From a virus: 20,096 nucleotides of DNA. The translations under genes and the position numbers were made by a program. This document shows, piece by piece, positions 3,807 to 16,958 of the stretch. The stretch lies in IMG/VR virus record IMGVR_UViG_3300000930_000116, positions 1-20,096 of that record; one strand, written 5' to 3'. The notes under the pieces are model-generated. The model saw only the letters and a list, made by a program, of their open reading frames with translations, did not search any database and was not told where the DNA came from. The stretch's first letter is position 1, and each line of letters starts with the position of its first letter.

Positions 3807-5546
3807 ATGGCATTTTCAGAATCTCCGGCAATTACCGTTAGAGAAGTCGACGCGTCTGGCACAGTGCCTGCAGTATCTTCCTCGACCGGTGGCTTTGTCG
3901 GTAACTTTCGTTGGGGTCCAGTAAATACACCTACACTCATTTCAAATGAAGCAGGTCTAGTTACAACCTTTGGCGCGCCCAACGCAACATCTACTGTCGA
4001 TTTCCATTCGGCAGCGTACTTTCTTAAGTACACTAACGCATTACAAGTTGTCCGTGTCTTAGGTGACTCCGACGGCTTTAATGCTTATAGCGTCGAATCA
4101 GGCGAAGCAGTAGCTGGTAAAAATGTACGCATCACAGATGTGAACCAGTTTGACGCTGCTAAAGCTGGACTTGACAGCGATAAGCATACATTTATTGCTA
4201 AGTGGCCAGGAACACTAGGCAACAGCCTTAAAATTTCTGTATGCCCACAAGCATCAAGTGCCAGTGTCTTTACTGGATGGACATACGCAAATAACTTTGA
4301 TGCTGCCCCTGGCACATCTAACTTTGCTGAAGGCCTAAACGCAACTAACGATGAATTACACGTCGCAGTTGTCGACGAAGACGGAGCCTTCACAGGCACA
4401 CGTGGTACTGTTCTTGAAACTTTCCCGTTTGTATCAGTTGCTAAAAACGCAAAAACATCTGACGGATCTACAAACTTCGTTAAAGACGTAATCAACCGGA
4501 CATCAAACTACATTTGGTGTGGCGGATTTGATTCTGATTATAGCGTTGCTCTTGCTGGTCAAGATGCTGTATCATCTCGCGACTTCCAAAAATCTTCAGC
4601 CGCTCAGGTTGTTAAAGAATATTCTTTGACCGAAGGCGACGAGTCAGAAAACATGGATGTTGGTGATTACATCAATGGTTACGATAAGTTTGAAGATAAA
4701 GACAATATACAAGTAGATTTGTTGATTGCTCCTCAAATGGCTTCACGTACAGACACAACAACAATTGTTAACGATCTAGTGAGTATTGCACAAGGCACTC
4801 GTAAAGATTGCGTCGTAGTTACTTCGCCTGCGCGTACAGACGTTGTTGGCGCAACAACGCCGGTCACTAACACAACCGACACATCTGCGACTTTCACATC
4901 GTCTTCATACCTTGTTATGGATAATAACTACCTTAAAGTGTATGACAAATACAACGATGAGTTTATTCATATTCCGGCTGCGTCTTCGACTGCTGGTATT
5001 ATGGCAGCAACTGACGTAAGTGCAGCTGCTTGGTACTCACCTGCTGGTCCACGTCGTGGTCAGTATCTTGGTGTGACAGGTATTGCATACTCTCCAAACA
5101 AAGCAGAGCGTGACGTACTATATCGCAACGGTGTTAACCCAATTGCTAATATTCCTGGTCAAGGTCTATTGCTCTTTGGCGATAAAACTAAACTGGCCCG
5201 ACCTTCGGCATTTGATCGTATTAACGTACGTCGTTTGTTCTTGGTCATTGAGCGCGCGATTGCTTTGGCTGCCCGTAACGTTATGTTCGAATTCAATGAT
5301 GAATTTACCCGAGCAGAATTTACAGGCGTCGTCGAACCGTTCTTGCGTGATATTAAAGGTCGTCGTGGTATTACAGACTTCCGCGTTATTTGTGACGAAA
5401 CAAACAACACTGGTGCTGTGATAGATAGAAATGAATTCGTCGCTACTGTCTTAGTCAAACCTGCTCGTTCCATCAACTTTGTTACCCTTAACTTTGTTGC
5501 TGTACGTACTGGCGTAGACTTCTCAGAAGTCGCTGGCGCGGTATAA
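3807..5546 (+). CDS. 18: gp18 contractile tail sheath protein
   Basis: 579 aa, against 659 aa in T4. The N-terminus has the family pattern SPAITVREVD, followed by GGFVGNFRWGPVNTP and the LVTTFGAP segment. The C-terminal third (RRLFLVIERAIALAARNVMF, then FNDEFTRAEFTGVVEPFL and GRRGITDFRVICD) is the conserved sheath core that carries the inter-subunit strand exchange. It ends in NFVAVRTGVDFSEV. Sheath hexamers stack around the gp19 tube and contract on infection. The region between about residues 90 and 390 is variable and surface-exposed in the family, and here it is shorter than in T4. The start is set by AGAGGA 7 nt upstream. The gene sits behind an exact late promoter and 13 nt before gp19. 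Confidence 0.97.
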   Translation: MAFSESPAITVREVDASGTVPAVSSSTGGFVGNFRWGPVNTPTLISNEAGLVTTFGAPNATSTVDFHSAAYFLKYTNALQVVRVLGDSDGFNAYSVESGEAVAGKNVRITDVNQFDAAKAGLDSDKHTFIAKWPGTLGNSLKISVCPQASSASVFTGWTYANNFDAAPGTSNFAEGLNATNDELHVAVVDEDGAFTGTRGTVLETFPFVSVAKNAKTSDGSTNFVKDVINRTSNYIWCGGFDSDYSVALAGQDAVSSRDFQKSSAAQVVKEYSLTEGDESENMDVGDYINGYDKFEDKDNIQVDLLIAPQMASRTDTTTIVNDLVSIAQGTRKDCVVVTSPARTDVVGATTPVTNTTDTSATFTSSSYLVMDNNYLKVYDKYNDEFIHIPAASSTAGIMAATDVSAAAWYSPAGPRRGQYLGVTGIAYSPNKAERDVLYRNGVNPIANIPGQGLLLFGDKTKLARPSAFDRINVRRLFLVIERAIALAARNVMFEFNDEFTRAEFTGVVEPFLRDIKGRRGITDFRVICDETNNTGAVIDRNEFVATVLVKPARSINFVTLNFVAVRTGVDFSEVAGAV

Positions 5547-5559
5547 GGAGGAGATACAA

Positions 5560-6087
5560 ATGGCTATTTTAGGCGTAGACGATTTTAAAGCAAAACTAGC
5601 AGGTGGCGGCGCACGCCCAAATCTGTTTAAAGTAACGCTAAACTTTCCAGCATATGCTGGCGGTGATGTTGAATTAACATCATTCATGTGCAGAACAGGT
5701 CAGTTACCTGGATCGACCGTACCGGCCGTGCCAGTTGCTTTCCGCGGTCGCCAATTGCAAATTGCAGGCGATCGTACATTTGAGCCCTGGTCTGTAACAA
5801 TTATCAATGACACGAACTTTACGGTTCGTGACTCAATGGAACGTTGGATGAACGGTATTAATGCACACGCTGCAAATACTGGTCTTGTAAACCCGACAGA
5901 CTATCAAGCAGATCTAAAAGTTGACCAATTGGATAAAGACGAAACAGTCTTAAAAACCTACAACTTTGTGGCTGCGTTTCCAACATCAGTGTCTCCTATC
6001 GAGCTAGCATATGATGCTAACGATCAGCTCGAAGAATTTACTACTGAGTTTACATACCAATACTGGACATCAAATACCACTTCCTAA
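5560..6087 (+). CDS. 19: gp19 tail tube protein
   Basis: 175 aa, against 163 aa in T4. Conserved features are ARPNLFKVTLNF at residues 18-29, a PG in the first strand pair (GQLPGSTVPAVPVAFRGR), IAGDRTFEPWSVTIINDTNF (compare T4, which has VAGDRTFDDWTVTVMND), and the C-terminal FTTEFTYQYWTS (compare T4 LALDYWE). It polymerises into the inner tube of the contractile tail. It has a very strong ribosome binding site, AAGGAGGAG, just after the gp18 stop, in keeping with the high copy number of the tube protein. A factor-independent terminator follows at 6106-6134. A divergent paralogue lies at 12019-12558. Confidence 0.97.
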   Translation: MAILGVDDFKAKLAGGGARPNLFKVTLNFPAYAGGDVELTSFMCRTGQLPGSTVPAVPVAFRGRQLQIAGDRTFEPWSVTIINDTNFTVRDSMERWMNGINAHAANTGLVNPTDYQADLKVDQLDKDETVLKTYNFVAAFPTSVSPIELAYDANDQLEEFTTEFTYQYWTSNTTS

Positions 6088-9884: not shown

Positions 9885-11213
9885 ATGCAATCATACGATA
9901 AATTGGTTGAAAAGTGGGCACCGGTTCTGAACGAAGAATCTGCCGGTACTATTTCTGACAACCACAAGCGTAGCGTAACAGCTATGGTTCTTGAAAACCA
10001 AGAAGCAGCTCTTCGCGAAGAGCGCGCACAACACAACGGTTTCCTCACAGAAGCCGCACCCGGCAACGCAACGTCATCAATTGGCACATGGGATCCAGTA
10101 CTTATTTCCCTCGTACGTCGTTCAATGCCAAACCTGATGGCCTATGATGTTGCTGGCGTTCAGCCAATGACTGGTCCAACTGGTTTGATCTTTGCGATGA
10201 AAGCACGTTACGGCGCTGGTGCAACTAGCTCTGCTGAAGCTCTCTTCAACGAAGCTAACACAGAATTCTCTGGTTCACAAGCCGCTAATGGTTTCACACA
10301 ACCTGCTGATGGTTCTGGCCTTAACGATTCTTCTGGTGCCGCAAACGGTATTGACGGTGAGCGTACAACTGCTCTCTTTGGTAACCCAATGGACACTGAC
10401 TCAGCTGAAGCTCTTGGTTCTGCAAGCAACGCTGCGTTTGCTGAAATGGGTTTCACCATTGAAAAAGCAACTGTGACCGCCAAGTCACGTGCACTGAAAG
10501 CTGAATACAGCTTAGAGCTTGCACAAGACTTGAAAGCGATTCATGGTCTTGACGCAGAAACTGAATTGGCAAATATCTTGTCAACTGAGATTCTTGCTGA
10601 AATCAACCGCGAAGTAATTCGTACAATCAACTCACAAGCCAAAACTGGTGCACTACAAGCTAACACAGCTGTAAACGGTATCTTTAACTTGTCTTCTGAT
10701 GCTGATGGTCGTTGGTCTGCTGAAAAGTTCAAAGGTCTGGTAATTCAGATCGAGCGTGAAGCAAACGTAATCGCCAAAGAAACTCGTCGCGGTAAAGGTA
10801 ACTTCATCATCTGTAGCTCAGACGTAGCATCTGCTCTGTCCGCTTCAGGCATGTTGGATTACACTCCTGCGATGTCTACTAGCTTGAACGTTGACGACAC
10901 AGGTTCAACATTTGCTGGTGTTCTTAATGGTCGTACAAAAGTATACATCGATCCGTATGCAACTGTTGACTATATCACTGTTGGTTATAAGGGTACAAAC
11001 CCATATGACGCAGGTCTCTTCTATTGTCCATACGTACCGCTCACAATGGTGCGCGCGGTTGGTGAAGACACCTTCCAGCCAAAAATTGGTTTCAAAACCC
11101 GTTACGGCATGGCTTCAAACCCATTTGTTGGTGCTACACCTGCAAGTGGTCTTGCTGCGGTCAAAACAAACCAATACTACCGTATCTTCCGTGTGGACAA
11201 CATCCTCACATAA
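9885..11213 (+). CDS. 23: gp23 major capsid protein (precursor)
   Basis: 442 aa, against 521 aa in T4, so this is a compact gp23. The conserved block SMPNLMAYDVAGVQPMTGPT, followed by GLIFAMKARYG, begins at about residue 78 and is the classic gp23 marker. Downstream are SLELAQDLKAIHGLDAETEL, FIICSSDVASALSASGMLDY and GRTKVYIDPYA. The N-terminal 56 residues look like the delta propeptide. A gp21-type site LTE|AAPG ends it at Glu56, giving a mature subunit of about 386 aa. It forms the HK97-fold hexamers. The coding sequence is unusually GC-balanced and codon-regular for the window, as expected for the most highly expressed gene. AGGAG at 9873-9877 is the ribosome binding site. A terminator pair follows. 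No gp24-like vertex gene follows. Confidence 0.98.
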   Translation: MQSYDKLVEKWAPVLNEESAGTISDNHKRSVTAMVLENQEAALREERAQHNGFLTEAAPGNATSSIGTWDPVLISLVRRSMPNLMAYDVAGVQPMTGPTGLIFAMKARYGAGATSSAEALFNEANTEFSGSQAANGFTQPADGSGLNDSSGAANGIDGERTTALFGNPMDTDSAEALGSASNAAFAEMGFTIEKATVTAKSRALKAEYSLELAQDLKAIHGLDAETELANILSTEILAEINREVIRTINSQAKTGALQANTAVNGIFNLSSDADGRWSAEKFKGLVIQIEREANVIAKETRRGKGNFIICSSDVASALSASGMLDYTPAMSTSLNVDDTGSTFAGVLNGRTKVYIDPYATVDYITVGYKGTNPYDAGLFYCPYVPLTMVRAVGEDTFQPKIGFKTRYGMASNPFVGATPASGLAAVKTNQYYRIFRVDNILT

Positions 11214-11229
11214 GTTACTCATAAAAAAA

Positions 11230-11251
11230 GGGACCGGCTTTTGCCGGTCCC
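11230..11251 (-). terminator. intrinsic terminator for the minus-strand operon
   Basis: A perfect 9-bp GC-rich stem, GGGACCGGC at 11230-11238 and GCCGGTCCC at 11243-11251, with a TTTT loop. Read on the minus strand it is followed by seven T's (complement of the A-run at 11223-11229), a textbook intrinsic terminator for transcripts coming from 11901 leftward. On the plus strand it has no U-tract and would only be an auxiliary hairpin behind gp23. Confidence 0.88.
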
Positions 11252-11255
11252 AACT

Positions 11256-11284
11256 AAAAGGTTCGCTTTGGCGGACCTTTTTTT
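11256..11284 (+). terminator. intrinsic terminator after gp23
   Basis: The stem AAAAGGTTCGC (11256-11266) pairs with GCGGACCTTTT (11271-11281), with one G-U wobble and loop TTTG. It is followed by a T-run through 11284. It ends plus-strand transcription from the capsid operon. On the minus strand it also forms a hairpin followed by TTTT, so it may act as a first, weaker stop for the opposing small operon. The minus-strand stop codon at 11283-11285 touches its tail. Confidence 0.85.
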
Positions 11285-11486
11285 AATCCATATCACAATT
11301 CCAGTTATGGCCATCATATAGAGCTTTAAGCGAACCGAGCGGAAAATCTGGGTGGGAAAATATAATATATGGCGCGCCTGTGTAATCCATGCTAAGCGAT
11401 TCTACAGTAACATCACTTACTTCAATTTCACGAACTGCGCGGTTTTTATCGTGAGACCACGTTCCTGAGTTAAAAATTCTAATCAT
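11283..11486 (-). CDS. hypothetical protein, 67 aa (minus-strand operon gene 3)
   Basis: 67 aa; I do not recognise it. The ATG at 11486 shares its A with the stop of the upstream 53-aa gene (TAATG) and has AAGGAG seven bases before it, so it is a real translated member of the operon. The sequence begins MIRIFNSGTWSHDKNRAVRE, continues with a beta-like section (IEVSDVTVESLSMDYTGAPY), then HPDFPLGSLKALYDG, and ends NWNCDMD. No signal peptide, membrane segment or coiled coil is visible. It looks like a small soluble alpha/beta protein with a single Cys. Its stop lies in the A/T tail of the gp23 terminator. As an early-promoter-driven small gene embedded among late genes, it could be a host-interaction factor, but nothing in the sequence proves a function. 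Confidence 0.75.
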   Translation of the reverse strand: MIRIFNSGTWSHDKNRAVREIEVSDVTVESLSMDYTGAPYIIFSHPDFPLGSLKALYDGHNWNCDMD

Positions 11487-11647
11487 TACGAAACTCCTTG
11501 ATCTGCCATCATAGCTTGTTCCATATTGTCAAGCTTATTGTGAAGTGACTGAATCTGAGCTTCAAACTGCCAATTGCGAAGCTCGCCTTCATTATAGTCA
11601 CGTTGCATGTCGCGAAGCGTTTTAATCATTTCATACATTTCTAACAT
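11486..11647 (-). CDS. hypothetical protein, 53 aa, coiled-coil-like (minus-strand operon gene 2)
   Basis: 53 aa, found by reading the gap between the two longer minus-strand ORFs. It begins MLEMYEMIKTLRDMQRDYNE and ends DNMEQAMMADQGVS. Its ATG at 11647 shares a base with the upstream stop (TAATG), and its stop at 11486-11488 shares a base with the next ATG. AGGAG at 11658-11662 precedes it. The product is Met-, Glu- and Gln-rich and almost entirely helical. Hydrophobic residues recur with heptad-like spacing (L, M, I, L, M in the first half; F, I, L, L, M in the second), so it probably forms a short coiled coil and oligomerises. I do not recognise a family. The exact start/stop interleaving makes it a convincing gene despite its size. 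Confidence 0.75.
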   Translation of the reverse strand: MLEMYEMIKTLRDMQRDYNEGELRNWQFEAQIQSLHNKLDNMEQAMMADQGVS

Positions 11648-11901
11648 TAAGCATAATCTCCTGCGTTAGTTGCAAAGTTAACGGCGTCAAGTATTTCGCC
11701 TAACATCATTTTAGCGCCGTCTTCGGTGTCAAAACCTTCATCGATAGCAAAGTCCATCGATGATGAAAGCATCAGTGACTGTGCAAAGTCTTGTTCAGCA
11801 AAAACTCGTACACCTTGTTCTACACTGTGAATAGCAATGACTTCATCATTGCTGGTCAAAAGCTCAAGGCCCTTGTTTGCTGCTGCGACGAAATTAATCA
11901 T
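11647..11901 (-). CDS. hypothetical protein, 84 aa (minus-strand operon gene 1)
   Basis: 84 aa, the first gene of a three-gene minus-strand operon. The ATG at 11901 has AAGGAG at 11907-11912 and lies about 20 nt below the predicted start of a sigma70-type promoter. The protein is acidic and soluble. An N-terminal helix (INFVAAANKGLELLTSNDEV) is followed by a short strand (IAIHSVEQGVRVFAEQ) and a helical C-terminus with FDTEDGAKMMLGEILDAVNF. No known motif, signal peptide or membrane helix is visible. Its stop overlaps the start of the 53-aa gene. It is the only type of gene here that opposes the surrounding late genes, so expression time probably differs from theirs. Function unknown. Confidence 0.78.
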   Translation of the reverse strand: MINFVAAANKGLELLTSNDEVIAIHSVEQGVRVFAEQDFAQSLMLSSSMDFAIDEGFDTEDGAKMMLGEILDAVNFATNAGDYA

Positions 11902-11928
11902 GATGTCTCCTTAATTAGCTTATGATCC

Positions 11929-11957
11929 TTTGTACCATAGCTAAAAGGCTTTGTAAA
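11929..11957 (-). promoter_or_regulatory. sigma70-type promoter of the minus-strand operon
   Basis: Read on the minus strand: -35 TTTACA (11952-11957), exactly 17 bp, then -10 TACAAA (11929-11934). Transcription would start near 11922, just above the ribosome binding site of the 84-aa gene. Directly upstream of the -35 is TTAGGGGG, shared with the minus-strand promoter at 15201-15229. Beyond that are two A-tracts (A7 and A8, 11 bp apart) that could act as an UP element or intrinsic bend. The -10 is only a 4/6 match, so confidence comes from spacing, placement and the shared upstream block. Confidence 0.65.
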
Positions 11958-11990
11958 CCCCCTAAATGCATTTTTTTACATTTTTTTTCA

Positions 11991-11998
11991 TATAAATA
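11991..11998 (+). promoter_or_regulatory. T4-type late promoter upstream of the gp19-like gene
   Basis: An exact TATAAATA. The expected start is near 12004 and the ATG is at 12019, with AGGAG at 12007-12011. It is divergent from the sigma70-type promoter at 11929-11957, so this 117-bp gap separates an early-type leftward unit from a late rightward one. The T7 and T8 tracts at 11971-11977 and 11981-11988 lie just upstream. Confidence 0.8.
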
Positions 11999-12018
11999 GA
12001 GACATGAGGAGATACTAA

Positions 12019-12558
12019 ATGGCAACTGAATCAGCAACTATTTCAACAGGTTTACTTGAGTCATCACTAACAACTAATACTAATTTCTTACAGCCAACTG
12101 GTTTTAAGTTGTCTATTAGTCGTAAGTATTTACCAAACCTAGAATACTTTGCACAATCAGTGCAACATCCTGGCGCGTCAATCAATACTATTGAAGTGCC
12201 GTACAAACGCATTGGATCTTTACCGTTTACTGGTGGAACAATGGTATTTGGTGAAGCTAGTGCTATGATTGTTCTTGACGAAGATATGAGCACATATACT
12301 GAAATGTATAATTGGATTAACAGTTTTGTTGATAGGCCCGATGTTAAATCGGCAGATGGCGGAAGTAAGCTTGGACCGTCAGTTGCTGACATAACTGTAT
12401 CAATACTTACAAGTTCGAACGTAGTCAAGAAGAAGCTTATATATAGAGATGCTATCCCAACGTTACTAGGCGATATTAATTTCGAAGCGGCGACCGGTGA
12501 TGTACAATATATGACATTTCCAATATCATTTAGGTTTTCGTATTTTGATTTAGTTTAA
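12019..12558 (+). CDS. gp19/gp54-family tail tube-like structural protein
   Basis: 179 aa, and apparently a paralogue of the tube protein gp19 in this window. Shared layout: PTGFKLSISR against RPNLFKVTLNF; FAQSVQHPGASINTIEVPYK against FMCRTGQLPGSTVPAVPVAF; FTGGTMVF against IAGDRTF; and MYNWINSF against MERWMNGI. The C-terminal beta strand FPISFRFSYFDLV corresponds to FTTEFTYQYW. The tube fold is also used by the baseplate tube initiator gp54 and related tail proteins. In marine T4-like phages the gene between gp23 and uvsY is often annotated, as I recall, as tail completion protein gp3, so this is the main alternative. It has an exact late promoter and a strong ribosome binding site, consistent with a virion component. 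The exact role (initiator, connector or terminator ring) is undecided. Confidence 0.72.
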   Translation: MATESATISTGLLESSLTTNTNFLQPTGFKLSISRKYLPNLEYFAQSVQHPGASINTIEVPYKRIGSLPFTGGTMVFGEASAMIVLDEDMSTYTEMYNWINSFVDRPDVKSADGGSKLGPSVADITVSILTSSNVVKKKLIYRDAIPTLLGDINFEAATGDVQYMTFPISFRFSYFDLV

Positions 12559-12575
12559 CAACTAAAGGTTATATT

Positions 12576-13019
12576 ATGGATTTAAAAACTATACTCGACA
12601 TGTGGTCGGCTGACTCAGTTATTTCTGAAACAAGCCTTGACGAAGCCTCACGGCAAACCCCTATCCTTCACGCAAAATATCTTGAACTTCATTCGCTAAC
12701 TAAATTGCGTTTGAAAAAGGCAGAACAGAACCAGAAAGTTTTACTTAAAAACAAATGGCTGTATTACAATGGCAAGATGGATGAAGATTCAATTATTGCT
12801 TTTGGCTGGGATCCAGATCCTTTTGACGGATTAAAAGTTATGAAGGGTGACATGGAATATTATTATGACGCTGATCCAGAAATCCAACAGTCAGTAGAGC
12901 GTATTGAGTATCTTAAAACAATAATGGATACACTGAAAGAAATTATAGATAATGTCAAATGGCGGCACCAGACTATTGGCAATATGATTAAGTGGAGAGT
13001 GTTTCAAAGTGGCGGTTAA
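12576..13019 (+). CDS. uvsY: UvsY recombination mediator
   Basis: 147 aa, against 137 aa in T4. The pattern of T4 UvsY is retained: an early ILHAKYLELHSLTKLRLKKA (T4 has MLYSKWLNKHSSIKKEMLRI), then LLKNKWLYYNGKMDED (T4 has ALKARLDYYSGRGDGD), and a C-terminal helix pair ending IGNMIKWRVFQSGG (T4 IKHIQDMRAFEAGK). UvsY helps load the UvsX recombinase onto gp32-covered single-stranded DNA during recombination-dependent replication and repair. UvsX itself is not in the window. AAAGG about 7 nt upstream is the ribosome binding site. The end overlaps the GTG start of the following 73-aa gene by 11 nt. Confidence 0.93.
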   Translation: MDLKTILDMWSADSVISETSLDEASRQTPILHAKYLELHSLTKLRLKKAEQNQKVLLKNKWLYYNGKMDEDSIIAFGWDPDPFDGLKVMKGDMEYYYDADPEIQQSVERIEYLKTIMDTLKEIIDNVKWRHQTIGNMIKWRVFQSGG

Positions 13020-13230
13020 ACCTAATACGAAATTTGAACTAGATATCAGGGATATAGAAATTATTGAATCTGCATTAAGAGCTAAGGCTGGCCGTAGGGG
13101 ATTAGCGATAGCTCAGGGCGAAACAAGTGAAAAGCTCAAAGCCGAGATGCTTGAAATTAATGATCTGATGGGAAGAATACATAACCAAAAAGTATGGTTT
13201 AGGCCAAAGGGAAAATTTGTAAGTGGCTGA
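13009..13230 (+). CDS. conserved small protein between uvsY and uvsW, 73 aa
   Basis: 73 aa with a GTG start at 13009, supported by GGAGAG at 12994-12999. No ATG is available upstream without running through uvsY. It overlaps uvsY by 11 nt and uvsW by 8 nt, so the three are probably translationally coupled. The protein has an N-terminal helix (DIRDIEIIESALRAKAGR), a charged middle and the C-terminal motif DLMGRIHNQKVWFRPKGKF. I recall small proteins with a similar L-G-R-I-H-N-Q-K and aromatic-R-P ending at this place in other marine T4-like phages, but their function is unknown to me. The location suggests a link with UvsY/UvsW-dependent recombination. The basic C-terminus could bind nucleic acid or a partner. 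Confidence 0.82.
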   Translation: MAVKPNTKFELDIRDIEIIESALRAKAGRRGLAIAQGETSEKLKAEMLEINDLMGRIHNQKVWFRPKGKFVSG

Positions 13231-14755
13231 TGTTACATTATGGAAGAAGAACGAAAGCATAGCACAAGTAGATACTGATGATGGCATCGCTCATGCGCTA
13301 AGCGAATATTTTTCGTTTTTTGTTCCTGGATACAAATACATGAAAATGTATAAGATAAAGGTCTGGGATGGTAAAATTAGATTATTTAATTTGCAGACAA
13401 GAGAACTGCCTGCGGGTTTATATCCATTTGTCGAAGAGTTTTGTAAACGAAATAACTATACAATAGAAACTAGTGACAGTGATTATGGTTCACCAGAAGA
13501 TGCTACTGAGATTAATCCACAGGATTTGCTAAACTATATAAAGTCACTTAATATACGCAACAACGGTAATCCTATTGATGTTCGAGATTATCAGTTTGAT
13601 GCAATTGCTAGAGCCTTGTCCATGCATAGATGTGTGCTGCTAAGTCCTACAGGCTCAGGTAAATCACTTATAATCTATATCTTAGCCAAGTATTTTTTAA
13701 ACTTACTCAACGGCCATCGTGGTGAGGATAAAGTTCTTATCGTTGTTCCTACTACTAGTCTGGTAGAGCAGATGTATAAAGATTTTGAAAACTATGGCAT
13801 GCTAGTAGAAAATGGCGTGCATAAGATTTACAGCGGTAAGGATAAGGATAATATTCGCGGTGGTATAGTAATATCAACATGGCAGTCAATATATAAGCTA
13901 GATGTCGAGTGGTTTGAACAATTTGGTATGGTTATTGGCGATGAGTGCCATGGATTTAAATCTAAGTCGTTAACTGACATAATGAATAAGTGCGTGAACG
14001 CTAAGTATAGATATGGTACAACAGGTACACTAGATAATGCGCAGGTCCACCATTTAGTGTTGCAAGGTTTATTTGGTAAGATACATAGGGTTACAACAAC
14101 CAAGAAACTTCAAGACAATAAAACGTTAGCTGCACTTGATATAAATATATTAGTACTGAAATATGATGAACACACACGTAAGAAATTTGGCAAGCCTGAC
14201 TACAGGGATGAAATTGATTGGATTGTCAGTAGCTCAGCGCGTAATAACTTTATAAGAAATCTTGCAGTAGATCAAACAGGTAATACGTTAGTGCTGTTTA
14301 ATTACGTAGAGAAACACGGTAAGCCGTTATATGATATGATAAAGGATAAAGCCGACAATAGCCGAAAGGTATTCTATGTTTCAGGTGAGGTTGAGACGTC
14401 AGATCGAGAAGACATTCGGCAAATAACAGAAGGAGAAGATAATGCCATTATTGTTGCATCTCTTGGTACCTTTAGTACTGGTATCAACATTCGAAATTTG
14501 CATAATATTATATTTGCTTCGCCATCGAAGTCCCAAATAAAAGTATTGCAATCAATCGGTCGCGGGTTGCGACAATCAGATGACGGAAGAACAACTACTC
14601 TGTACGATATATCTGATGATCTTCATTGGAAGAGTCACCAGAATTATGCTATGTTACACTCTATTGAACGAGTTAAAATTTACAAAAAAGAAAACTTTAA
14701 ATTTAAAATTATTGAGGTAGCGATTAATGGACATCAGACAATTCAAACTAGCTAA
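13223..14755 (+). CDS. uvsW: UvsW recombination helicase
   Basis: 510 aa, against 503 aa in T4. It is an SF2 helicase. The N-terminal substrate-recognition domain has YKIKVWDGKIRLF (T4 has FRYGNWDGRIRLL). Helicase motifs are SPTGSGKS at 141-148 (I), STWQSI at 218-223, GDECHGF at 239-245 (II), TGTL at 267-270 (III), FSTGINIRNL at 417-426 (V) and QSIGRGLRQ at 443-451 (VI). UvsW unwinds D-loops, Holliday junctions and R-loops. In T4 it shuts off origin replication late and promotes branch migration. The start is GTG at 13223. The next ATG, at residue 40, would cut into the conserved N-terminal domain. It overlaps its upstream neighbour by 8 nt and its downstream neighbour by 29 nt. Confidence 0.97.
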   Translation: MADVTLWKKNESIAQVDTDDGIAHALSEYFSFFVPGYKYMKMYKIKVWDGKIRLFNLQTRELPAGLYPFVEEFCKRNNYTIETSDSDYGSPEDATEINPQDLLNYIKSLNIRNNGNPIDVRDYQFDAIARALSMHRCVLLSPTGSGKSLIIYILAKYFLNLLNGHRGEDKVLIVVPTTSLVEQMYKDFENYGMLVENGVHKIYSGKDKDNIRGGIVISTWQSIYKLDVEWFEQFGMVIGDECHGFKSKSLTDIMNKCVNAKYRYGTTGTLDNAQVHHLVLQGLFGKIHRVTTTKKLQDNKTLAALDINILVLKYDEHTRKKFGKPDYRDEIDWIVSSSARNNFIRNLAVDQTGNTLVLFNYVEKHGKPLYDMIKDKADNSRKVFYVSGEVETSDREDIRQITEGEDNAIIVASLGTFSTGINIRNLHNIIFASPSKSQIKVLQSIGRGLRQSDDGRTTTLYDISDDLHWKSHQNYAMLHSIERVKIYKKENFKFKIIEVAINGHQTIQTS

Positions 14756-15170
14756 TGATGAAGAGATCATTTGCGAAATCGTCGAGTATCACGACGAAGG
14801 CGATGCTATAGTTATTCGAAAATCGCTCAGATTAGTTAGCATGGATAATCTTGCTCAAGGTACTCGCTATTACGCATTTCGGCCGTTTATGATGTTTCAA
14901 ATGAAACCTGGTGCATTTCAAGTATTGAGTGGTGCTCATATTGTGGCCGAGTGTGAGCCACACGACGAAATGGTAAACGAATATTTCAAATCACTAGAAC
15001 AATTCATGAAAGAAGAAGACGATATAGATAATGTATCTGTTGACGAAATGAGAGCTGAGATGAAAGCTCATTTGAATAGCCTACAAGAAGGCGTAGAGTA
15101 TCTTGGAAAAGATTCAGGCGACCAATTAAGTAATATTCTAAAATTCAAACCTAAGTCGACGATTCATTAG
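14727..15170 (+). CDS. hypothetical protein, 147 aa, possible Sm/LSm-like fold
   Basis: 147 aa, starting inside uvsW (29-nt overlap) with GAGG at 14714-14717. The first 95 residues read as a small beta-barrel. The opening strand pair is FKLANDEEIICEIVEYHDEG followed by DAIVIRKSLRLVS, then a loop, YYAFRPFMMFQMKPGAFQVL, and IVAECEPHDEMVNEYFKSLE. This order (short helix or strand, curved strand with a conserved Glu/Gly turn, then aliphatic strands and an aromatic-Pro turn) resembles LSm/Sm1-type RNA-binding folds annotated in some marine phages. The C-terminal 50 residues are acidic and helical. I cannot show homology to Hfq by sequence. It is the last gene before a divergent-promoter region, and one of those promoters points into it on the opposite strand. 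Alternative: a structural or accessory protein of unknown role. Confidence 0.75.
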   Translation: MDIRQFKLANDEEIICEIVEYHDEGDAIVIRKSLRLVSMDNLAQGTRYYAFRPFMMFQMKPGAFQVLSGAHIVAECEPHDEMVNEYFKSLEQFMKEEDDIDNVSVDEMRAEMKAHLNSLQEGVEYLGKDSGDQLSNILKFKPKSTIH

Positions 15171-15200
15171 GATCTATCTACCCTCAGAAGTAACTCTTTT

Positions 15201-15229
15201 ATTATAACATGGTTTGCGCATATTGCAAA
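15201..15229 (-). promoter_or_regulatory. sigma70-type promoter facing left, antisense to the 147-aa gene
   Basis: Read on the minus strand: -35 TTTGCA (15224-15229), exactly 17 bp, then a perfect -10 TATAAT (15201-15206). Transcription would start near 15194 and run into the 3' end of the 147-aa gene on the opposite strand. It shares TTAGGGGGTTT upstream and at the -35 with the minus-strand promoter at 11929-11957. No ORF of useful size lies downstream on the minus strand, so the product would be an antisense or small RNA. Confidence 0.6.
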
Positions 15230-15231
15230 CC
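15211..15231. repeat. 7-bp inverted repeat inside the leftward promoter
   Basis: GGTTTGC (15211-15217) and GCAAACC (15225-15231) are perfect inverted arms around a 7-bp centre. The repeat spans the spacer and -35 of the minus-strand promoter at 15201-15229, a usual place for an operator. It could also form a hairpin at the 3' end of the 147-aa gene transcript, but no U-tract follows on the plus strand. Function is inferred from position only. Confidence 0.45.
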
Positions 15232-15267
15232 CCCTAATATAAAGAATACCGTAATTAATTTTTAGTG

Positions 15268-15296
15268 TTTACATTTGAGTAAATACGCGGTATAAT
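15268..15296 (+). promoter_or_regulatory. sigma70-type promoter of gp55-gp47-gp46
   Basis: -35 TTTACA (15268-15273), exactly 17 bp, and a perfect -10 TATAAT (15291-15296). The transcript would start near 15303, leaving a leader of about 20 nt with AAGGA at 15311-15315 before the gp55 ATG. Host-type recognition makes sense because gp55, the late sigma factor, must be made before late promoters can fire. Confidence 0.88.
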
Positions 15297-15321
15297 ATAA
15301 CCATATGTTAAGGAATATATT

Positions 15322-15900
15322 ATGAAACCTCAGGACAAACCACACTACGTCAACAACGCTATGTTTTCAAACGCGGTAGTTGAATATGTCACTACACTCA
15401 ACGAGGCCCGAATCGCCGAAGCAAAATTGCCTGTTGTGACTAACTATATTGCAACGTGCTTTCTCAAAATTGCAGAAGGATTATCTCACAAATCTAATTT
15501 TATCAGGTACACTTACCGTGAAGAAATGGTGATGGATGCTGTTGAGAACTGTCTTAAAGCTATTGAGAATTATAACTTAGAAGCAGCTACGCGCACAGGT
15601 CGACCAAACGCATTTGCGTATTTCACGCAGATCTCATGGTACGCATTTCTACGTCGTATTGCTAAAGAAAAGAAACAACAAGAAATCAAGTTTAAATACC
15701 TGTCTCAGTCTGGTGTCGAAGCTTTCTTATTAGATGATACTGATAACTCAGTAGCAGCTCATTTTGTTGATACACTCAAAGATCGTATTGATAAAGTAAA
15801 AGAGTATGACACAGAGATTAAAGTGTTTGCTAAAAAAGAGAAAAAGCGCAAACGACCTATACAAAAAGTAGACTCGGATTTGACTGGTTTCTTTAAATGA
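15322..15900 (+). CDS. 55: gp55 late-transcription sigma factor
   Basis: 192 aa, against 185 aa in T4. The N-terminal part YVNNAMFSNAVVEYVTTLNE matches T4 gp55 ([20 protein letters not shown]). IAEGLSHKSNFIRYTYREEM parallels T4's [21 protein letters not shown]. The helix with GRPNAFAYFTQISWYAFLRR corresponds to the sigma region 2-like core. The extreme C-terminus, SDLTGFFK, is a short acidic-hydrophobic tail like the T4 gp55 tail that binds the sliding clamp gp45. Gp55 replaces host sigma to recognise TATAAATA late promoters. Four such elements, one a variant, occur in this window. It is the first gene after a strong sigma70-type promoter, and its stop overlaps the gp47 start (ATGA). Confidence 0.95.
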   Translation: MKPQDKPHYVNNAMFSNAVVEYVTTLNEARIAEAKLPVVTNYIATCFLKIAEGLSHKSNFIRYTYREEMVMDAVENCLKAIENYNLEAATRTGRPNAFAYFTQISWYAFLRRIAKEKKQQEIKFKYLSQSGVEAFLLDDTDNSVAAHFVDTLKDRIDKVKEYDTEIKVFAKKEKKRKRPIQKVDSDLTGFFK

Positions 15901-16958
15901 AGATAGCGATAATCAATGACACTCATGCAGGCGTTCGTAACAGCTCTGATATTTTTCTTGATAATGCCGAGAATTTTTATGGGAACACTTTTTTTCCTTA
16001 TCTCTTGCGCAATGGCATTAGCCATATCGTACATCTTGGTGACTTCTATGATGTAAGAAAGTTCGTTAATTTTAAAGTGCTAAATCGCACACGTGATATG
16101 TTTTTATCAAAGTTACGTGAGCATAAGATTACTATGGATATTATTCCAGGCAATCATGACGTATTTTATAAGAACACAAACGAACTCAATTCACTTAAAG
16201 AGCTACTTGGCCACTATATGAACGAAGTCCATATTATTATGGAACCTACCGTTATGGAATATGGTTCACTTAAAATGGCACTTGTTCCATGGATCAATAA
16301 AGAAAATTATGACACTAGCGTAAACTTTATTAAAAACTGTAAAGCAGATATACTTGGCGGCCACTTAGAGCTACAAGGCTTTGACGTTTTAAAAGGTGTG
16401 GCGTCTCATGTAGGTATGGATCATAAACTATTTTCAAGATTTGAACATGTTTACTCTGGTCATTTTCACACAAAATCACATAAAGATAATATCACCTACT
16501 TAGGCACACAGATGGAGTTTACTTGGTCTGACGCCCATGATCCAAAACACTTTCACATATTAGATACAGAGTCGCGCGAGCTCACAGCTGTGCCGAACAC
16601 TGATACATTATTCCAACGTATTAGATACGATGATCGTGAAACAGATTATAATGATTTTGACCTAAGTTGTGTTGATAATAAATTTGTAAAAATAGTTGTA
16701 ATAAACAAGTCTGACCTATTTACATTTGACTCATTTGTTGATAGAATACAAGAAAGGCCTATTCATGAACTGAAAATTGCTGAAGACTTCAAAGAGTTTA
16801 TGGGTGACAATGTAGAAGATACTGGCATTGATGTAGAAGATACTACAGCTTTGCTAGACGCATATGTTGAAGGCGTCGATACAAATTTAGACAAAGAGCG
16901 GTTAAAGCTAAACATGCGTAACCTACTCATTGAAGCACAGGCTATGGAAACTGCATGA
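15897..16958 (+). CDS. 47: gp47 recombination nuclease subunit (Mre11/SbcD family)
   Basis: 353 aa, against 339 aa in T4. Metallophosphoesterase motifs in order: INDTHAG with D8 and H10, HLGDFYD with D49, IPGNHDVF with N86 and H87, GGHLELQG with H156, and YSGHFHTKS with H189 and H191. All metal ligands expected for Mre11-type nucleases are present. With gp46 it forms the complex that resects double-strand ends to give 3' single strands for UvsX/UvsY-dependent replication and degrades host DNA. The start ATG overlaps the gp55 stop by four bases, and its stop overlaps the gp46 start in the same way, so the three proteins should be coupled in expression. The C-terminal 100 residues are acidic and likely contact gp46. 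Confidence 0.97.
   Translation: MKIAIINDTHAGVRNSSDIFLDNAENFYGNTFFPYLLRNGISHIVHLGDFYDVRKFVNFKVLNRTRDMFLSKLREHKITMDIIPGNHDVFYKNTNELNSLKELLGHYMNEVHIIMEPTVMEYGSLKMALVPWINKENYDTSVNFIKNCKADILGGHLELQGFDVLKGVASHVGMDHKLFSRFEHVYSGHFHTKSHKDNITYLGTQMEFTWSDAHDPKHFHILDTESRELTAVPNTDTLFQRIRYDDRETDYNDFDLSCVDNKFVKIVVINKSDLFTFDSFVDRIQERPIHELKIAEDFKEFMGDNVEDTGIDVEDTTALLDAYVEGVDTNLDKERLKLNMRNLLIEAQAMETA

Follow-up and report, generated by a model that had tools for sequence, protein, structure and literature searches.

The three small minus-strand genes located between the major capsid gene gp23 and the tail completion gene gp3 of this virus fragment are best explained as a small early-type accessory operon, carried in reverse orientation in a gp23-gp3 insertion slot that recurs among marine T4-like phages. 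We assign this reading a probability of about three in four. The window, meaning the whole stretch of DNA that was analysed, is a 20,096-base IMG/VR virus record and represents a 20-kb fragment. Its gene order is that of marine T4-like phages and includes genes, named by homology and position, for portal, prohead protease, scaffold, gp23, gp3, uvsY, uvsW, gp55, gp47 and gp46. All of these genes are found on the plus strand, and the single exception in the window is the block at positions 11283-11901, as a preliminary description of this DNA had stated.

The left border of the slot is formed by gp23 (9885-11213, plus strand) and the right border by gp3 (12019-12558, plus strand). The same description had called the right-hand gene gp19-like, which is wrong, because its matches in the cyanophages S-RSM4, S-SM2 and P-SSM2 are annotated as gp3, the tail completion or sheath stabiliser protein. 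Judging from position, the gene at 5560-6087 is a better candidate for gp19. A 73-amino-acid gene of unknown family with a GTG start codon is located further downstream (13009-13230), between uvsY and uvsW.

The minus-strand block and its regulatory elements

There are three open reading frames in the block, all on the minus strand: ORF84 (11647-11901, 84 amino acids) is the first gene of the operon, ORF53 (11486-11647, 53 amino acids) the second and ORF67 (11283-11486, 67 amino acids) the third. They are chained by TAATG overlaps and each is preceded by a Shine-Dalgarno sequence (AAGGAGA, CAGGAGA and AAGGAG, respectively), exactly as first claimed. The stop codon of ORF67 arises within the A-tract of the plus-facing gp23 terminator. 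A three-ORF chain of this type appeared in none of 5000 order-2 Markov sequences, and no comparable minus-strand chain is present in 89 further 805-bp segments taken from the contig. Codon usage is coding-like, with in-frame scores of 0.54, 0.53 and 0.23 bits per codon for ORF84, ORF53 and ORF67, compared with 0.12-0.59 for the plus-strand genes, while the antisense frames of the other genes in the window score negative or near zero. Among the slot genes of relatives and the relatives of ORF84, dN/dS values of 0.04-0.51 indicate purifying selection, and broken ORFs on otherwise conserved DNA were not seen. An independent metagenome contig from the same species (L003) overlaps window positions 11810-16613 with 4 mismatches in 4804 bp. 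Since this contig spans the junction between the cassette and gp3, the junction was not created by misassembly. Neither an Rfam family nor a tRNA was found in the window or in the slots tested, and no repeats were found at the borders of the minus-strand block.

A sigma70-like promoter (TTTACA-17-TACAAA, with an extended-minus-10 TG) is located in front of the operon at 11929-11957 on the minus strand, with a predicted start near position 11922. Its presence had been proposed at the outset. This promoter is moderate by itself (shuffle p 0.03) and was not picked up by a strict promoter scan. Similar promoters with a 17-bp spacer are found 24-49 nucleotides upstream of the first gene in eight of the nine other minus units scored. 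In L005, the script detected no good promoter, and TGTACA-17-TATTCT is readable by eye.

At the other end, the minus-facing intrinsic terminator of the operon (11230-11251, minus strand) stands back to back with the plus-facing terminator of gp23 (about 11258-11285, plus strand). This two-hairpin stretch folds far better than shuffled sequences (z of -5.9 and -7.2, one for each strand), in agreement with the strong terminator originally noted behind the operon. The right border of the slot also carries the T4-type late promoter of gp3, TATAAATA (11991-11998, plus strand), which is divergent from the operon promoter. The insert in the window is thereby placed between the terminator of gp23 and this late promoter.

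This architecture suggests how the operon might be expressed. Soon after infection, host RNA polymerase with sigma70 would make one leftward tricistronic mRNA of about 700 nucleotides, extending from about 11922 to about 11225, and the minus-facing terminator would halt this transcript before it could run antisense into gp23. Later, gp55-directed transcription would proceed through gp23 and gp3 on the other strand, and the second terminator, together with the late promoter beyond the operon, would keep the two apart. Support for the proposal that the unit is made early is indirect, and comes from the similar promoters in other minus units, from the presence of ORF84 relatives in small-gene clusters, and from one T4-like contig in which such a cluster is opposed in strand to the structural genes.

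Variation of the gp23-gp3 interval among related phages

Loci were collected with gp3 and gp23 as baits, and the 133 loci having both genes were compared. The gap between the two genes is no longer than 200 bp in 88 of these loci, and inserts are found in the other 45. In the nearest relatives with a near-empty gap, the interval contains nothing beyond the terminator of gp23 and the late promoter of gp3. The order gp23 - gp3 - uvsY - uvsW - gp55 is kept in the fetched loci. Compared for presence or absence of the block, most relatives are nearly empty at this place and the closest ones carry different sets of genes. A conserved core-gene order, combined with content that varies among close relatives and includes empty sites, is what characterizes a plastic region.

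Small-gene units on the minus strand are found in eight loci (L105, L123, L125, L128, L135, L160, L162 and L169), larger minus units in four (L076, L126, L154 and L158), and one large minus ORF in L117. Orientation classes were assigned by a combination of codon scores and manual judgement. In a gp23 tree with 107 rows, minus units occur in 15 rows (window included) and the minus state needs 11 changes, at least seven of which are forced by starred branches of this single-gene tree. Of 13 minus-unit loci, 8 yielded a minus-facing terminator and 5 did not, compared with 5 of the 121 other loci that yielded one (Fisher p 7e-7, ignoring shared ancestry). Inserts occur in both orientations, and one methyltransferase family is found on the plus strand in L031 and L035 and on the minus strand in L158. 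Thus, the reverse orientation is not obligatory.

The most informative comparison is with a sister phage (L165) whose gp23 is 94% identical to that of the window. Its slot has the same orientation as that of the window and the same twin terminators with the linker AGTTGGGA, and the promoter is also part of the frame that the two phages have in common. The genes within this frame are different, and comprise a member of a 113-amino-acid family and ORFs of 37 and 80 amino acids. Another locus, L005 (gp3 85% identical), also has this frame and carries the first two of the L165-type slot genes before its contig ends. A similar frame recurs among the minus units, with early-like and late promoters diverging at one end and, in many of the units, twin convergent terminators at the other. 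Judged from these sequences, the frame stays and the contents are swapped between sister phages, amounting to complete replacement. The earlier suggestion of a transferable cassette therefore stands in so far as the unit is self-contained and is replaced between relatives, but it is mostly the contents of a conserved frame that seem to move, rather than one cassette.

Such exchange could proceed through homologous recombination in the conserved flanks, which are the end of gp23 with the terminators on one side and the late promoter with gp3 on the other. It may be aided by homing endonucleases that insert at this site, as exemplified by the HNH/NUMOD3 endonuclease of L125 and by segD of phage T4. 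In L169, the last slot ORF (2175-2417) contains about 33 nucleotides nearly identical to the antisense of the adjacent 3' end of gp23, which is perhaps a trace of local recombination.

The ORF84 family and other occupants of the slot

A homologue of ORF84 with 37% identity is encoded in L171. A two-row profile made from these two proteins was run on IMG/VR and recovered a new phage family with the motif SSSMDFA..EGF..DGA. Invariant or nearly invariant positions are A7, G11, S47, S48, the MDFA segment, A/I53, G56, F57, G62 and A63. The AlphaFold2 model of ORF84 is a confident alpha/beta structure (pLDDT 90, pTM 0.80). There is no match to it in the PDB by profile or fold and no structural match in BFVD, where the best hit had an E-value of 0.045 and was not used. 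Likewise, ORF84 and one relative gave no match in phage records, and ORF84 gave none in GTDB genomes. For the first gene of the operon there is now a family with a defined motif, as well as a confident model, and these are open to testing.

Members of the ORF84 family elsewhere sit in small-gene clusters. In contig G016 (gp23 65% identical), the member is part of a long run of genes encoded on the other strand from gp23, protease and portal, and it adjoins both a gene of the 113-amino-acid family and a DUF932 gene. In L047 the slot is nearly empty and an ORF84 relative is found elsewhere on the contig. Other slot genes have similar connections: the second slot gene of L105 has an 85% match to a gene near the 113-amino-acid family in L170; a slot gene of L162 matches a gene that is located close to the ORF84 homologue of L180-L184; and the 113-amino-acid gene of L005 and L165 matches genes in L170 and L171. 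Because they recur in small-gene clusters elsewhere, ORF84 and several other slot genes belong, on this sequence evidence, to a small-gene pool of T4-like phages. This assignment does not apply contig by contig, since the majority of the contigs that carry ORF84 relatives are fragments lacking gp23. Judged by their strand, promoters and neighbours, the genes of this pool are probably early genes.

Among the genes of the window, membership of the shared pool holds for ORF84 only, because ORF53 and ORF67 are without relatives. Neither gave anything credible in IMG/VR, phage records, Pfam or PHROGs. A lone match of ORF53 was dismissed because it covers 15 residues within an unrelated 407-amino-acid protein, and a likeness of ORF67 to a sequence in L169 was too weak and too short to be taken as homology. 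The single-sequence structure model of ORF67 is poor (pLDDT 64).

There are also slot occupants with known domains. These include a D12 adenine methyltransferase (L076), a DNA methylase-like protein that falls below the Pfam cut-off (L158), a DruA-like protein accompanied by PhyH (L126), a reprolysin-like protease (L117), an HNH/NUMOD3 endonuclease (L125) and tail-fibre-like cargo. This mixture makes a function in host interaction plausible.

Several of these loci are worth describing individually. The methylase-like protein of L158 (5754-7088) and those of L031 and L035 form one family of 444-447 amino acids with opposite slot orientations in related phages. In L125, the endonuclease is encoded on the plus strand (5470-5868) within the gp23-gp3 slot, beside a three-gene minus unit. 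The minus-strand slot ORF of L117 (3820-4806) combines a signal-like N-terminus with a metalloprotease domain of reprolysin-like (M12B) type, which is odd cargo for a phage. A minus-strand slot block in L126 (5933-8866) and L154 encodes the DruA-like protein (PF14236) and the PhyH dioxygenase, and also a 324-amino-acid protein that has no Pfam match and looks ParB-like by eye only. Finally, about 500 nucleotides without long ORFs separate two minus-strand slot genes in L160 (5545-6050); this stretch has no Rfam or tRNA match, and its folding z-score is only -1.75.

Possible functions and relationship to known systems

The three proteins would most likely act early on the host, in takeover or counter-defence, a role that is plausible but unproven. 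It had been suggested at the outset as a possibility, and for these three genes it is not supported as it was stated; no homology to a known inhibitor was found in PHROGs, Pfam, PADLOC, PDB or BFVD. A stronger form of this idea holds that the three proteins act together to disable a host defence or to redirect the machinery of the host, and that the slot is an anti-defence island. The early-type promoter, the small size of the genes, the fast turnover of slot contents between sister phages and the DNA methyltransferases and DruA-like protein among other occupants are all consistent with such a module. However, the three ORFs lack matches in the databases just named, and the slot also receives protease, dioxygenase, tail-fibre-like and endonuclease genes. 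Location alone therefore does not imply anti-defence, and we regard this as a possible but doubtful specialization. Nothing in the family searches favours a toxin-antitoxin system. Similarly tentative is the broader proposal that the gp23-gp3 interval is a dedicated, often strand-inverted accessory island whose conserved regulatory frame serves to exchange small host-interaction genes, with the ORF84 (SSSMDFA) family as a new early phage effector of unseen fold.

It is unlikely that the block is instead a mobile element whose genes travel together as one cassette, either bounded by promoter-early stem-loop (PeSL) elements or inserted by a homing endonuclease. Its precise placement between a terminator and a late promoter, its recurrent gain or loss, and the presence of endonucleases at this site in both L125 and T4 would fit this proposal. 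Yet the block has no endonuclease, integrase or border repeats, its promoter and stem-loops are at opposite ends, and the finding of other genes in the same frame of a sister phage fits content replacement better. Very improbable is the idea that the main product is an antisense or regulatory RNA, in which case the leftward transcript would adjust the expression of gp23 or gp3 and the ORFs would be incidental. The operon is convergent with gp23, and an antisense RNA has been reported in cyanophage S-PM2 (PMC2984593), but the ORFs carry coding signatures, ORF84 represents a conserved protein family, purifying selection acts on the slot genes of relatives and the minus-facing terminator ends the transcript short of gp23. 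The small size of the ORFs and the lack of relatives for ORF53 and ORF67 might point to chance antisense-strand ORFs in spacer DNA or to an assembly artefact. This is refuted by the random-sequence test, codon usage, the ORF84 family and the second metagenome contig across the junction, leaving it a negligible probability. The accessory operon in a recurrent slot is the reading that we prefer.

T4-like genomes consist of conserved modules parted by hyperplastic regions, such as the g15-g18 region of cyanomyoviruses (PMC2984593). The gp23-gp3 slot resembles these regions in having variable small genes between conserved core genes and turnover among close relatives. It differs in that it is at another place, is often reversed, and is framed by twin convergent terminators and divergent early-like and late promoters. 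No earlier description of this site and frame was found in the open-access literature searched. The slot is thus a variant of the T4-like hyperplastic region at a site that we did not find described.

PeSL elements, which reportedly mediate shuffling (Arbiol 2010 and Comeau 2014, as cited in PMC4503421), are similar, as presented in that citing paper, in that a short promoter and a stem-loop are found next to small genes that are exchanged in T4-like phages. The operon in the window differs because its promoter (11957-11929) and its stem-loops (11230-11285) are at opposite operon ends and form no composite element, and it was rejected as a PeSL on this basis. A stem-loop directly before an internal promoter was seen, by eye, in L169 only.

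In T4 itself, the corresponding region reads gene 23 - segD - 24 - rnlB/24.2/24.3/hoc/inh - segE - uvsW, with segD following gene 23 directly on the minus strand. As in the window, genes downstream of gene 23 are oriented against the late head genes. In contrast, the genes are others, gene 24 rather than gp3 comes next, and there is no homology to the three ORFs. The homing endonuclease insertions, segD in T4 and HNH/NUMOD3 in L125, share with the block its interval, its intergenic position and its location beside a late gene. The three ORFs of the window differ from them in having no endonuclease match in Pfam or PHROGs, and a homing-endonuclease origin for the block was set aside.

What began as an odd three-gene block is now a defined and searchable docking site in ocean T4-like phages, and its variable genes can be read from metagenomes. 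Because such sites may accumulate genes used in combat with the host or in its takeover, the slot is a place to seek new small effectors. The interval between gp3 and uvsY is a second variable site, and ranges in length from near zero to about 3 kb (L037, L041, L058, L067 and L075).
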